From Sulfitobacter sp. THAF37 (GTDB lineage Bacteria > Pseudomonadota > Alphaproteobacteria > Rhodobacterales > Rhodobacteraceae): a stretch of DNA of 64,000 bases. Each line of letters starts with the position of its first letter. Positions within the stretch are counted from its first letter, which is position 1. Below, piece by piece: positions 54,120 to 59,815 of the stretch. A program made the position numbers and the translations under genes. The notes beneath the pieces were generated by a model, which was given only the letters and a program-made list of their open reading frames with translations, made no database searches and was not told the origin of the DNA. The DNA is taken from assembly GCF_009363555.1 (NCBI RefSeq), contig NZ_CP045372.1:2119501-2183500 (forward strand), given 5' to 3'.

Positions 54120-55214
54120 ATGGGACCTTTCCCGCATGACGCAGCGAAGTCGAAAATTACCGCTGAAAACCCTGCCGGAACCGACGGTTTCGAGTTTGTC
54201 GAATTCGCGTCCGAGAACCCGCAGGAACTGCGCGATCTGTTCACCCGCATGGGCTATGCCCACGTGGCCAACCACAAGAGCAAGCAGATCGAGCTTTGGC
54301 AGCAGGGCGACATCACCTATGTTCTGAACGCCGACCCCGACAGCTTTGCCGCGAAGTTCGTACAGGAACACGGCCCCTGCGCGCCCTCGATGGGCTGGCG
54401 CGTGGTCGATGCGAAGCACGCGCTGGAACACGCCGTTGCCAACGGCGCCGAGGAATACACCGGCGACGGCAAGGTGCTGGACGTACCTGCGATCATAGGC
54501 ATCGGCGGGTCGCTGATCTATTTCGTGGATCACTACTACGAAACCTCGCCCTACAACTGGGAATATGACTGGATTGCCACCTCCAAGCCGGACGGCGTCG
54601 GGTTCTACTATCTCGACCACCTGACCCACAACGTGTTCAAGGGGAACATGGACGTCTGGTTCAAGTTCTACGGCGATCTGTTCAACTTCCGTGAAATCCG
54701 CTTCTTCGACATTGAAGGCAAGTATACGGGCCTGACCAGCCGCGCGCTCACCTCGCCCTGCGGGCGGATCCGCATCCCGATCAACGAAGACCGGGACGAG
54801 AAAGGGCAGATCGTCGCCTATCTCAGAAAGTACAATGGCGAGGGGATTCAGCACATCGCGGTCGGGGCGCGTGACATATATGACGCGACCGACGCGATTG
54901 CCGACAACGGGCTGAAGTTCATGCCCGGTCCCCCGGACACGTATTACGACATGAGCAAAGACCGCGTGACCGGCCATGAAGAGCCGCTGGACCGGATGAA
55001 GAAGCACGGTATCCTGATCGACGGCGAAGGTGTGGTCGATGGCGGCGAGACCCGTATCCTGCTGCAGATCTTCTCGAAAACGGTGATCGGTCCCATCTTC
55101 TTTGAGTTCATCGAACGCAAGGGCGATGACGGCTTTGGGGAGGGCAACTTCAAGGCGCTGTTCGAAAGCATCGAACAGGAACAACTGGAAACCGGCGAAC
55201 TCAAGGCGTCTTGA
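54120..55214 (+). CDS. hppD: 4-hydroxyphenylpyruvate dioxygenase
   Basis: 364 residues; strong AAAGGAGG before the ATG. Two vicinal-oxygen-chelate domains with the iron ligands His167 (LDHLTH), His245 (IQHIAV) and Glu329 (IFFEFIERKGDDGFGEGNF). Converts 4-hydroxyphenylpyruvate to homogentisate in tyrosine degradation. Its divergent Lrp-type regulator is adjacent, and a strong terminator follows. Confidence 0.97.
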   Translation: MGPFPHDAAKSKITAENPAGTDGFEFVEFASENPQELRDLFTRMGYAHVANHKSKQIELWQQGDITYVLNADPDSFAAKFVQEHGPCAPSMGWRVVDAKHALEHAVANGAEEYTGDGKVLDVPAIIGIGGSLIYFVDHYYETSPYNWEYDWIATSKPDGVGFYYLDHLTHNVFKGNMDVWFKFYGDLFNFREIRFFDIEGKYTGLTSRALTSPCGRIRIPINEDRDEKGQIVAYLRKYNGEGIQHIAVGARDIYDATDAIADNGLKFMPGPPDTYYDMSKDRVTGHEEPLDRMKKHGILIDGEGVVDGGETRILLQIFSKTVIGPIFFEFIERKGDDGFGEGNFKALFESIEQEQLETGELKAS

Positions 55215-55308: not shown

Positions 55309-58300
55309 TCAGCTGCGGGGCATGGTCAACACGACCGACCGCCCGCCCTTGGTGTAGCGCAGTTCGCTGTCGCCGATGGCCGACACGCGGCCCCCGTCGA
55401 TCCGGTCGCCCACGACGACCTTCTGGTACCGTCCGTTGCTCAACCGGATCAGCGCGCGGCGGTTGGACGGCTTGCCATAGACACCGATCAGGTTGATCCG
55501 GCGCAGGTTGATCGCGTTCTTCACCGTCGCCTGTTTGGCGACAGATGTTTTCGACGGAATACTGGGCGCGACCGCACGGGGGGCCACGCTGGCCACACGG
55601 GTCTCTTCTCTGGGCGCGGCCCGTTCCGCACGGCGTACGATCCGGTTGAAGTTGCGCGGGCGCGGATCGGGTCGCGCCGAGGCTGCAACGGCGAATTGGG
55701 TCGGATTTTCAAAGGCCGCAGGCCGCGCCGGGGTTTCCAGCGCCTCGGCCACCGCCTCTGCCGTGTCTGCGGGGTCCACGGGGGGGGCTGCTGCGGCAGC
55801 GGCCTGTTCCTGCACGGATTGCGGGCGCAGGGCAGGGCGATACTCCGCCAGTTCATCCAGGGTCAGCCCGTCGAACTGCGCGCGCTCTGCGGTTTCGACC
55901 AAATCGCCGGGCCGTGTGCGCGGCCGTACCGTGGCCAGGATGTCAAGTTCCGGTGTTTCCTCGGTGGCATCTTCGCCGGTTTCGCCGGTCTGGGGCTGGT
56001 AGCGCGCCATGATGGCGTCGGGCGGGATGAGCTCGGGGCGGCCGAGATAGATGGTGATGCCATCCGGGTTCACGGTGCCCGCGGCTGTCGGGATCACAAG
56101 CCCGTTCGGCCCAAAGGCAAACCGGGTGCCCGCCGCCGCCGGATTCGGGATGTCATCCATCGCCGCATCGGTCAGCATGTCTTCCAAAGCGGGCAGGGCA
56201 ATGGCATCCGCCGCGGTACTGATCGGGTCGATGCTGGTCAGATAAAGGTCTTCGATCACGACTTCGCCCGCCGGTTCGGGTGGCAGGACGGGCGCGCGGG
56301 GCCAGATCCCGGTGGCGGCATACTTGGCTTCCAGCTCTGCCTCGGTCAGATCCTGCGCCGGGGCCGGGGCCGGTTCACGCAACGCATCCAGCACCGCGCC
56401 GTCCTCTTCGGTCAGGCCGCTGTCAAGCGCCGCTGTCTGCACCGGATCTTCCGACGGGGTGGCCGGGGCCTCGGGCACCGGCGTGTCGGGCGCCGCGGCG
56501 ACTTCGGGCGTGCTGCGGGGGCCGAACAGCCGAGAGAGGTTCAGCCCGTCATCCAGGAAAACGGATGCCCAGGCCGCGACACCGGCGAGGAACACCAGCA
56601 AGGCGGCAGTCAGGATCAGGCCCAGAAAGCGCGGCTTTCCCCCCACATCGGCTTTGCGCGCGCCGAAGATGGTCATGCGCTCGGCCTCTGAAACCGCGCC
56701 CCCGGCGGGTTGCGGCGCAGGGGTCGACGGAATGTGCTTGCCCGGGGGGGGGGCGGCCTTGCTGCGCCGGCTCAGGAAACCGGTTTTGGCTGGCGCGGCG
56801 GCAATGGAAGGCCCGGGCGGAGGGCTGTCCAGCGACGAGCTGTCGGGCCGCATCACGGCGTCGTCATCCGGTGTCAGCGCGGCGGCGGTGGCCGCGGGTG
56901 TCGCGACCTTTGGCTCGCGGCGCGCGCCTTCCAACGCGGGCGGTGTCGCAGGGGCGCGGCGGCTGGAAAAGCCTGCCGGTTCGGCACGCAACGGCGGCAG
57001 CGGCGCGGCTGTCGGCTTCTTTTCGATCCGGTTGGCCCGCAAGGGCGGCATGACCGGCACGTCCGGCGTGTCAGCAGCCGTTTCGGGCAGATCTTCGGCC
57101 CCGTCGCCCTTGTGTTCGTCAGTGGCGGCTGCACCTCGGTCAGCATTGCCGGATGTGACGTCCGAAACACTGTCGGGGGCGTCCTTCGTGCGCACCACCG
57201 GCGCCGCGCCCACGGGCGGCGTCGCTGCGGCCGCTGCGGCCACCGGCGCGGTCGGAATCTGCACTGTGACGTCTTCTGCCGCCTCCTCGGGCGGCTCCTC
57301 CGCCAGGGCGGGCGAGGACGATGAGCTGGCCCTGGCCGCTTCGCCCGTTGTGGGCTCGGGGTGCGCGGCCTTGGGTGTCGGAGCCTGCAAGACCGTTTCA
57401 GCATCCTTGGCAGGCGCGGAAGGTTCGTCCGCCTTTGCGACCGGTTCGGGGGGCCGGGCCTGCGGTGTCCTGGCCGAAGCGGCAGGGGCAGAAGCGGCGG
57501 GGGCAGAGACCGGGCTGTCTGCCGCCCCGTCCTTGGCCGCTTCCGTCGGGGTCTTTTCGGCCTTTGGCGGCAAGGGAGTGGCCGATGCCGGTGTTTCCGG
57601 CGCGAATGTCTCATCCGGCTTGGGCGGCTCATTCGGCGTGGCCGGTTTTTCCGCTCCCGGGGCGGGGCGTTCCGGCGTGTCGGCAGGATCGACCCTGGCG
57701 GGCGCGGCGGGCGCGTCGGCAGTGGTATCCGACGCGGGTGCGGCCGGGGGTGTTTGTTTTTCGGCCTTCTCGGGCTTGGCCGGTTCGGATGCCGCAGCTG
57801 CAACCGGGCCATCGGGGACCTTGACGTCGCCGATCACGACAACGGCGATGCCGTCCGCCTCGACGCTTTCGCCGTTCTCCAGCAGGGTCGCCGCCGCCTC
57901 GGTCTCGCCGAAAAAGGGTTCGCCCAGATAGGGGCTTTCGCCCGGCGTGGCGGCAAAACTGACAGGGTGGAACCGATGCTCAACGGCAAAGCTCTCCGCC
58001 TCAGCCAGGGTTTCCAGCGCCACGGCGGCGATATGGGTGCGAGGGCCGTCCTGGCTGATATCAAAGGCCAGGTCATCGACCGCGTAGGGCGTCGCCCCGT
58101 CGAGCGCGGCGCGGGAGGCCTCGCGGCGCTCGGCCTCAGACATGTCGGGTGTGTCGATGGTCAGATACTTGATCTGCTCGTCCGGCAGCAGCAGTTTCGT
58201 GCGCAGGCCGCCGGGTTCAAGCGCGGTGGCGGATTTCCGCAACACGGCAAGATCGGCGTTCAGGTCATCGGCATCCAGGGCCACTTCGCCGACGATACGC

Positions 58301-58371
58301 CAGCCACCGGCCGCGCGGTGCAGCAGCCGAATCCCTTCAAAAGACAGCGAAAGTGCAAAATCTGGCTTCAT
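55309..58371 (-). CDS. Large membrane protein joining a PilM/GspL-like start to a PilP/GspC-like end
   Basis: 1020 residues. Residues 1-190 resemble the N-terminal part of PilM/GspL-type actin-like proteins: FALSLSFEGIRLLHRAAGG, LLLPDEQIKYLTIDTPDMSE, then ATPYAVDDLAFDIS, which recalls the PYPLDE region. Residues 190-575 are a disordered Pro/Ala/Glu-rich linker. One membrane helix follows (about 581-603). The periplasmic part ends (about 954-1020) in a PilP/GspC-like module: INLIGVYGKPSNRRALIRL, VVVGDRIDGGRVSAIGDSEL. By analogy it would bridge cytoplasm and periplasm in an envelope machine. This is fold-level inference; lineage-restricted protein. Confidence 0.7.
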   Translation of the reverse strand: MKPDFALSLSFEGIRLLHRAAGGWRIVGEVALDADDLNADLAVLRKSATALEPGGLRTKLLLPDEQIKYLTIDTPDMSEAERREASRAALDGATPYAVDDLAFDISQDGPRTHIAAVALETLAEAESFAVEHRFHPVSFAATPGESPYLGEPFFGETEAAATLLENGESVEADGIAVVVIGDVKVPDGPVAAAASEPAKPEKAEKQTPPAAPASDTTADAPAAPARVDPADTPERPAPGAEKPATPNEPPKPDETFAPETPASATPLPPKAEKTPTEAAKDGAADSPVSAPAASAPAASARTPQARPPEPVAKADEPSAPAKDAETVLQAPTPKAAHPEPTTGEAARASSSSSPALAEEPPEEAAEDVTVQIPTAPVAAAAAATPPVGAAPVVRTKDAPDSVSDVTSGNADRGAAATDEHKGDGAEDLPETAADTPDVPVMPPLRANRIEKKPTAAPLPPLRAEPAGFSSRRAPATPPALEGARREPKVATPAATAAALTPDDDAVMRPDSSSLDSPPPGPSIAAAPAKTGFLSRRSKAAPPPGKHIPSTPAPQPAGGAVSEAERMTIFGARKADVGGKPRFLGLILTAALLVFLAGVAAWASVFLDDGLNLSRLFGPRSTPEVAAAPDTPVPEAPATPSEDPVQTAALDSGLTEEDGAVLDALREPAPAPAQDLTEAELEAKYAATGIWPRAPVLPPEPAGEVVIEDLYLTSIDPISTAADAIALPALEDMLTDAAMDDIPNPAAAGTRFAFGPNGLVIPTAAGTVNPDGITIYLGRPELIPPDAIMARYQPQTGETGEDATEETPELDILATVRPRTRPGDLVETAERAQFDGLTLDELAEYRPALRPQSVQEQAAAAAAPPVDPADTAEAVAEALETPARPAAFENPTQFAVAASARPDPRPRNFNRIVRRAERAAPREETRVASVAPRAVAPSIPSKTSVAKQATVKNAINLRRINLIGVYGKPSNRRALIRLSNGRYQKVVVGDRIDGGRVSAIGDSELRYTKGGRSVVLTMPRS

Positions 58372-58522: not shown

Positions 58523-59815
58523 TCAGCCCACCGCCTTGCTCAGCGCCTGGTCGAGGTCCGCGATCAGGTCGTCCGCGTCCTCTGTCCCGATGGAGATTCG
58601 CACCACATTGGGTCCGGCCCCGGCAGCCACCTGCTGTTCCTCGCTCAATTGCCGGTGGGTGGTGGAGGCGGAGTGGATCACCAGCGATCGCGTGTCGCCC
58701 AAGTTGGCGACATGGCTGAAGATTTCCAGCGATTCGACCAGTTTCACGCAGGCTTCGTAGCCGCCCTTGACCGCGATGGTAAACAGCGCGCCGGCCCCTT
58801 TCGGGCAGACCTTGGCCACCCGGTCGGCATAGGGCGAGGATGCCAGCCCGGCGTAGGTCACGGCCTCGATCCGGTCGTCCTGCTCCAGCCACGAGGCGAT
58901 CTTGCCGGCGTTGGCCACGTGCCGCTCCATGCGCAGCGACAGGGTTTCGATGCCCATCAACGTGTAATGCGCGGCCTGCGGGTTCAGCGTCATGCCGAGG
59001 TCGCGCAGCCCGATGGCGATGCCGTGGAAGGTGAAGGCCAGCGCGCCGAAGGTCTCGTGGAACTTGAGACCGTGATAGGCCGGTTCCGGCTGGCTGAGAG
59101 AGGGGAACTTGTCGTTCGCGGACCAGTCGAACTTGCCCGAGTCGATCACGCAGCCGCCTGTCACGGTGCCGTTGCCGGTCAGGTATTTGGTCATGGAGTG
59201 AACCACCAGCGTGGCGCCGTGTTCGATCGGGCGACACAGGTAGGGGGTGGCGGAGGTGTTGTCGATGATCAGCGGCACGCCCGCTTTATCCGCGATATCG
59301 GCCACCGCGCGCACATCCATGATGTAGCCGCCCGGGTTGGCGATCGCCTCGCCGAAGATGGCACGGGTGTCGTCGTCAACTGCGGCACGAACCGCGTCGA
59401 GGTCATCGAAATCCACGAATTTGCAGGACCACCCGAAGCGTTTGATGGTCTGGCTGAACTGCGTGACCGTGCCGCCATAGAGCCGCGTGGAAGCGATGAT
59501 GTTCTTGCCCGGCCCCATCAGCGGGAACAGCGCCATGATCTGTGCGGCGTGACCGGAAGAACAGCAGACCGCGCCGACGCCACCTTCGAGCGTGGCCAAG
59601 CGTTCCTGCAGCACGGCAACGGTCGGATTGGTCAGGCGCGAATAGATAAAGCCCACTTCCTGAAGGTTGAACAGCGCCGCGGCGTGGTCCGCATCGCGGA
59701 AGACATAGGCCGTGGTCTGGTAGATCGGCGTCTGGCGCGCTCCCGTGGCGGGGTCGGGGCGCGCACCGGCGTGGATTTGCAGGGTGTCGAAGCCGTAGGT
59801 GGGTCCGTCGGTCAT
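58523..59815 (-). CDS. metY: O-acetylhomoserine aminocarboxypropyltransferase / sulfhydrylase
   Basis: 430 residues. PLP enzyme of the Cys/Met family: FDTLQIHAGARPDPATGA, SSGHAAQIMAL, and the PLP lysine in VVHSMTKYLTGNGTVTGG. Makes homocysteine from O-acetylhomoserine and sulfide. A hairpin with a GGTTGGC/GCCAACC stem at 58481-58510 lies just past its stop but lacks a T-tract. No SAM-II-like element was recognised upstream. Confidence 0.96.
   Translation of the reverse strand: MTDGPTYGFDTLQIHAGARPDPATGARQTPIYQTTAYVFRDADHAAALFNLQEVGFIYSRLTNPTVAVLQERLATLEGGVGAVCCSSGHAAQIMALFPLMGPGKNIIASTRLYGGTVTQFSQTIKRFGWSCKFVDFDDLDAVRAAVDDDTRAIFGEAIANPGGYIMDVRAVADIADKAGVPLIIDNTSATPYLCRPIEHGATLVVHSMTKYLTGNGTVTGGCVIDSGKFDWSANDKFPSLSQPEPAYHGLKFHETFGALAFTFHGIAIGLRDLGMTLNPQAAHYTLMGIETLSLRMERHVANAGKIASWLEQDDRIEAVTYAGLASSPYADRVAKVCPKGAGALFTIAVKGGYEACVKLVESLEIFSHVANLGDTRSLVIHSASTTHRQLSEEQQVAAGAGPNVVRISIGTEDADDLIADLDQALSKAVG

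Follow-up and report, generated by a model that had tools for sequence, protein, structure and literature searches.

A fused GspL- and GspC-like protein as a candidate trans-envelope tether in Rhodobacteraceae

The window analysed here is a stretch of 64,000 nucleotides from Sulfitobacter sp. THAF37 (contig NZ_CP045372.1, positions 2,119,501 to 2,183,500). At 55309..58371 on the minus strand it contains a gene with an ATG start, encoding a protein of 1020 amino acids in which parts resembling GspL and GspC, components of type II secretion systems (T2SS), are joined in one chain. The cytoplasmic N-terminal domain (residues 1-178, 57838..58371) is of the GspL/PilM type and contains just the first half of an actin-like fold. 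It is followed by a disordered, P/A/E-rich cytoplasmic linker (179-580, 56632..57837), the sole transmembrane helix (583-606, 56554..56625), and a periplasmic spacer (607-940, 55552..56553). The C-terminus consists of a helix and a beta domain of the GspC HR/PilP type (941-1020 with the stop codon, 55309..55551).

The structure of the fused protein was predicted with AlphaFold2 and then used for a structure search. The predicted local distance difference test (pLDDT), taken in blocks of ten residues, is 94-98 over residues 1-180 and 87-96 over 961-1020. It falls below 50 across most of residues 195-580 and is mostly low in the spacer, with better values around 675-690 and 740-780. The top structural matches of the N-terminal domain are the cytoplasmic domain of GspL and PilM, with GspE-GspL and PilM-PilN complexes also appearing among the hits. 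Residues 2-178 of the model align with residues 10-179 of PilM (5eoy), a protein of about 350 residues, so that the second half is missing. For the C-terminal domain, the top matches are the GspC HR domain (3oss_C, root mean square deviation of 1.3 over 61) and PilP; the PilP-type structures 2lc4, 2y4y, and 2ivw and DotF (7muc_AF) are also matched. A preliminary description of this DNA had proposed a single open reading frame (ORF) with a shortened actin-like GspL/PilM end, one membrane helix, and a GspC/PilP end, which the model and the structure search bear out. Predicted folds unrelated to PilM/GspL or PilP/GspC, named there as the contrary outcome, did not occur when checked, while matches to the family models are sub-threshold. 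Support for the fold assignment of both ends, as modelled, comes from AlphaFold2, the structure search, and profile matches that lead to the L and C genes in a T2SS operon.

The mean net charge flanking the membrane helix in 148 relatives is +3.2 on the N-terminal side and -0.75 on the C-terminal side. Since the positive flank precedes helix 583-606, which is helical in the model and has a hydropathy of 2.57, an N-in/C-out topology is predicted. The linker varies in length and sequence among relatives, in which FxSRR and xGAR motifs recur. In the window protein these are FSSRR (468-472, 56956..56970), FLSRR (532-536, 56764..56778), and, directly before the membrane helix, TIFGARK (567-573, 56653..56673), where the consensus of near relatives is TVFGAR. 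Residues F532, L533, S534, R535, and R536 are invariant in a 25-row alignment, and [TS][VI]FGAR precedes the helix in many of 20 distant relatives and is missing in others. In a set of 148 related and hence non-independent proteins, the linker motif [FLV]x[SG][RA]R occurs 2.5 times per protein, versus 0.05 times in shuffled linkers; it is absent from three of 21 diverse members. Conserved YAxTGIW, DAxALP, and RPxxRP motifs are found in the spacer. The boundaries given in the preliminary description hold in part. A linker of about 390 residues had been noted, which is indeed disordered and cytoplasmic but spans about 400, whereas the second, periplasmic spacer of about 330 residues had been overlooked. 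The N-terminal domain, taken as residues 1-190, is folded but ends near 178.

Family models and sequence searches recover little of this architecture. The fused protein has no Pfam match, also at the cut-off of the T2SSL model, and T2SSL matches at E 0.0055 or weaker are seen in two of 14 members. The PilP model TIGR03021 gives 21.2 bits, below its cut-off of 34.65. PilP is typically a lipoprotein with an N-terminal signal; the window protein begins with a folded domain, has its transmembrane helix mid-chain, and shows no such signal. After the helix, no Pfam match to a GspL_C/PilN domain was obtained, where the GspL of the genome's own T2SS is itself below the cut-off for GspL_C (5.4e-6) and the spacer is mostly modelled with low confidence. 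Sequence searches of the PDB with the full protein or a full-length profile returned nothing useful (one stray row at E 0.46), and the N-domain profile found no GspL or PilM row there. Designed TPR proteins topped the latter search (E down to 1.8e-10); they were read as composition bias, with no passing stretch in seven of 12 rows, and were not used. Profile comparison with the single GspL and GspC of the own genome was uninformative. In GspC, Ala133 and Val141 are residues contacting GspD (PMC3169554); a simple offset places them at about Y965 and A973, an equivalence that was not used for lack of a residue-level superposition. Relatives carry the database names "hypothetical protein", "Translation initiation factor 2", "Type IV pilus biogenesis protein PilP", "MSCRAMM family adhesin SdrC", and "YdaS regulator", and the low-complexity linker is perhaps the cause of the odd ones. 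Literature searches, judged from the search-result entries, found no description of the fused protein.

The distribution was assessed in a family sample of 150 genomes from 149 genera, each at least 95% complete and assigned to Rhodobacteraceae according to named relatives. Absences are the outcome of profile searches in nearly complete, partly fragmented assemblies. The N-domain profile matches 141 of the 150 genomes and 140 of the 149 genera, with a single match per genome except in G198; a first family search with a single N-domain sequence had matched 36 of 41. All 36 genomes of the same genus, the own included, are positive, as opposed to none of 24 from other families. Ruegeria pomeroyi also carries an orthologue (L189). 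In a class-wide draw, five of 241 genomes match, four within the family and one (G371) outside; the 216 non-matching genomes that went unlisted may include family members. The proposed lineage specificity thus stands as a restricted distribution, although the lineage is the whole family and there is one match beyond it. The C-domain profile has a match in 60 of 61 family genomes and two matches in 20 of these 61, and 33 of 36 same-genus genomes have a second, short C-domain match. The own genome encodes an 88-residue protein with only the HR/PilP-like C-domain near a purF-like gene (2443717-2443977; L085:9712-9978, minus strand). Among the finite values listed from 19 pairs with synonymous divergence near saturation, the ratio of nonsynonymous to synonymous substitution rates (dN/dS) is 0.05-0.22 for the N-domain, 0.06-0.37 for the C-domain, and 0.23-0.84 for the linker.

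The origin of the two ends was traced through related gene sets. The sole match outside the family in the class-wide N-domain search, in G371 (E 2.3e-7), falls on the L gene within a T2SS operon that comprises peptidase A24, T2SSE with MshEN, T2SSF, T2SSG, GspH, a further N-methyl pilin, T2SSK, L, T2SSM_b, and C. This L gene matches PilN (1.4e-12) and, just below the cut-off, PilM_2 (3.7e-6); the C gene has no Pfam match, and no secretin lies within the stretch fetched around the operon. At the metZ locus of G076, one strand carries a GspE-like ATPase gene with MshEN and then an L gene reaching the contig end, and a second contig with the same end peptide holds the remainder of L, an M gene (T2SSM_b 4.6e-8), and a C gene. 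The ATPase (L115:1017-3896), encoded beside metZ, has 959 residues, its MshEN and ATPase parts being separated by a long intervening stretch. G113 contains an isolated L-M-C trio (L: PilN 4.4e-8; M: T2SSM_b 2.7e-5) and, elsewhere, a second set that includes GspD, E, F, and an L of the PilN type. In local profile searches with filters off, the window N-domain matches the L proteins of G076, G113, and G371 at 4.7e-21, 9.8e-17, and 7.4e-9, and its C-domain the corresponding C proteins at 7.5e-15, 5.3e-11, and 1.8e-5. The N-domain profile reaches neither the GspL of the own T2SS nor the other L of G113, and the C-domain search finds the own GspC only at E 2.8. T2SS-type genes beside a relative of the fused gene were seen in G076 and G113 only; the window gene itself has no T2SS neighbours.

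In the fused proteins of G060, G115, G130, G144, G150, and G163, a scan of residues beyond 150 places the start of the best membrane segment at residue 153-175 in N-domain count, the segment of G163 being weak (1.48). The long cytoplasmic linker therefore seems to have been inserted later. A MetZ tree of 38 rows with midpoint root, in which 14 of 35 inner branches are open, seven loci gave no MetZ, and G113 was left out, puts G076, G150, and G074 as well as G060, G130, and G144 outside a group, well supported at 99/99, that holds the remaining 32. G073 and G117, which carry the two domains in two separate ORFs, are inside this group and are therefore not called ancestral; their divided state may reflect either true gene fission or a frameshift. 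The likely path at the metZ locus leads from metZ-E-L-M-C (one genome, two contigs) to stand-alone L-M-C, to linker-less fusions, and finally to the long-linker form.

Retention of the gene was compared with the presence of secretion machinery. Of the 150 family genomes, 135 have a secretin domain (the same search is positive in six of 14 control genomes). The N-domain is kept in 13 of the 15 secretin-less genomes, as against 128 of the 135 with secretin, without association (Fisher p 0.22). In twelve of these 13 secretin-less genomes the reading frame continues to a stop codon and also encodes the C-domain, with profile E-values of 4e-27 or better. A T2SSF match is absent from 14 of the 15 secretin-less genomes, G151 having one weak match, whereas the search is positive in 13 of 14 controls. 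With the N-domain present in 13 of these 15, the gene does not require a connection to a pilus or secretion machine in order to be retained, and dependence on a secretin was rejected. The two exceptions, G141 and G197, have no match to N-domain, secretin, or T2SSF.

The fused gene is flanked upstream by metZ (58523..59815, minus strand), a Cys/Met enzyme dependent on pyridoxal phosphate that marks the locus in relatives, and downstream by the convergent hppD (54120..55214, plus strand). Ten neighbouring ORFs comprise cobS, cobT, an antiporter, an Lrp-type regulator beyond hppD, hppD, metZ, a SpoU methylase, a CoA-binding protein, and two without Pfam match (E 1e-5). None is recognised as a pilus or secretion gene, and every secretin and T2SSF match of the own genome falls outside the window, in agreement with the earlier remark that no such genes lie nearby. 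Among 20 family loci, metZ lies upstream in the same orientation in 19, the antiporter is present in 14, cobT in 11, and hppD in six. Functional links to all four were considered and rejected, that to metZ in view of its being a housekeeping enzyme. At ten loci (L067, L071, L074, L075, L077, L078, L080, L081, L082, and L111) a gene read as SIMPL, with Pfam confirmation in L111 only, lies on the opposite strand between metZ and the target. No SIMPL gene is found there in the window, where the two genes are 151 bases apart, and a link to it was likewise rejected.

Several roles other than that of an independent tether were weighed. The own genome encodes a T2SS set at about 912-926 kb (L003), with C, D, E, F, G, I, L, and M above and N below cut-offs and an additional N-methyl pilin (J and K were outside the search), which directly abuts a Tad-like set. 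A second Tad-like set, with RcpC and its own secretin, lies at about 1.97-1.98 Mb. The fused protein could be an accessory connector of a Tad pilus, its HR domain binding the N0-like domain of the CpaC/RcpA secretin and its cytoplasmic end a Tad ATPase or localisation proteins. The commonest kind of secretin in the family genomes has about 480 residues, the own one carrying PF13629, and according to PMC12307814 no Tad protein had been reported in an alignment role before RcpC, described as the Tad alignment complex of Pseudomonas. However, the own Tad set already has RcpC (PF16976), the nearer Tad set is about 195 kb from the fused gene, and the retention without secretin and T2SSF described above also speaks against this role, which we regard as rather unlikely. 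It is decidedly improbable that the protein serves as a spare part of the T2SS: its folds and profiles are akin to GspL and GspC and a T2SS set is present, but this set has its own GspC, GspL, and GspM, and secretin frames of at least 580 residues occur in just 12 of the 41 family genomes of which 36 have the N-domain.

A signal transducer, whose periplasmic HR domain would sense the envelope state while the half-actin domain recruits a regulator via the linker, would suit the asymmetric bitopic layout, the long disordered cytoplasmic linker, and the repeated short motifs. This is unlikely, as the second half of the PilM-type fold is missing and no obvious partner regulator is encoded in the neighbourhood, where the Lrp-type regulator stands beyond hppD. 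A decaying remnant without present function is very hard to reconcile with an N-domain in 140 of 149 genera, nearly always in one copy, with dN/dS well below 1 at both ends, and with invariant motifs, even though the gene is kin to a dismantled gene set, only the C-domain is found in G074 and G088, and the domains are split in G073 and G117.

Comparison with known systems shows partial likeness to each. Like GspL, the fused protein has an actin-like cytoplasmic domain and one transmembrane helix, with a profile trail to an outside T2SS L gene of the PilM_2 and PilN type. In contrast to GspL, it has a long linker before the helix and only the first half of the PilM-type fold, lies outside any T2SS operon, and has no GspL_C or PilN-type periplasmic domain detectable by Pfam, the spacer being mostly of low model confidence. 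It shares a transmembrane helix, a periplasmic spacer, and the HR domain with GspC, but adds the GspL-like domain, lacks a PDZ domain by Pfam, and is kept without secretin. The folds of both ends resemble PilM (5eou) and PilP (2lc4, 2y4y, 2ivw; TIGR03021 below cut-off) of type IVa pili, although here both are in one chain with a mid-chain helix and no PilN or PilO gene adjoins. We know of no actin-like domain in GspB/OutB (4wfw), which works with GspD. The comparison with DotF, a protein of the Dot/Icm type IV secretion system, covers the C-terminal GspC/PilP-like domain, which is shared (7muc_AF; PMC8486379).

The explanation to which we lean, with moderate confidence, is that the protein descends from a T2SS-type platform, of which the cytoplasmic part of GspL and the periplasmic part of GspC were fused, and is now an independent trans-envelope tether throughout the family. 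The analysis shows two folded ends and a single membrane helix, kinship with an L-M-C(-E) gene set at the metZ locus, maintenance under selection, and persistence of the gene in the absence of a detectable secretin or T2SSF. We infer a connector role; a tether is the best reading because a bitopic chain bears two such ends, a cytoplasmic linker of about 400 residues, and a periplasmic spacer of about 330 residues. GspL and PilM dock cytoplasmic or juxtamembrane partners. The GspL-like end would thus dock a cytoplasmic partner, comparable to GspL-GspE or PilM-PilN, and the linker with its repeated FxSRR/xFGAR motifs would provide reach and multivalent docking. As a suggestion only, VFGAR before the membrane could dock on the protein's own N-terminal domain, as the PilN tail does on PilM. 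The HR/PilP-like end would dock on a protein of the periplasm or the outer membrane, other than a secretin or in addition to one. While GspC docks the N0 domain of the secretin (PMC3169554), the C-domain of DotF docks on non-secretin envelope proteins (PMC8486379), and a non-secretin partner is plausible because the fold is the same. The net effect would be that an inner-membrane complex is placed or held at an envelope site.

Several observations weigh against a tether of this origin and placement. The trail runs through one outside operon, given that the own GspL and the other L of G113 are unmatched and the own GspC appears only at E 2.8. The 88-residue paralog has neither signal peptide nor membrane helix and looks cytosolic; the C-domain therefore need not always act in the periplasm. 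In the secretin-less genome G089 the N-domain is partial, its frame runs off the contig end, and no C-domain was found. N-domain matches weaker than E 1e-40 occur in seven of 13 secretin-less versus 15 of 128 secretin-containing genomes, and the lower scores could reflect relaxed constraint or deep branching. Because secretins are present in 135 of the 150 genomes, a secretin may also be the partner in most species.

It is, on balance and with the same moderate confidence, probable that a T2SS platform, dismantled and fused, persists throughout the family as a self-contained core scaffold across the envelope, which has acquired new partners and needs no type IV filament machine. If this is true, a secretion machine can disappear while its inner-membrane platform, pared down and fused, survives as a core envelope protein. 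As likely intermediates still exist, the evolutionary path is traceable gene by gene. The proposed tether also offers testable hypotheses for a conserved "hypothetical protein" gene of a large, marine-rich family.
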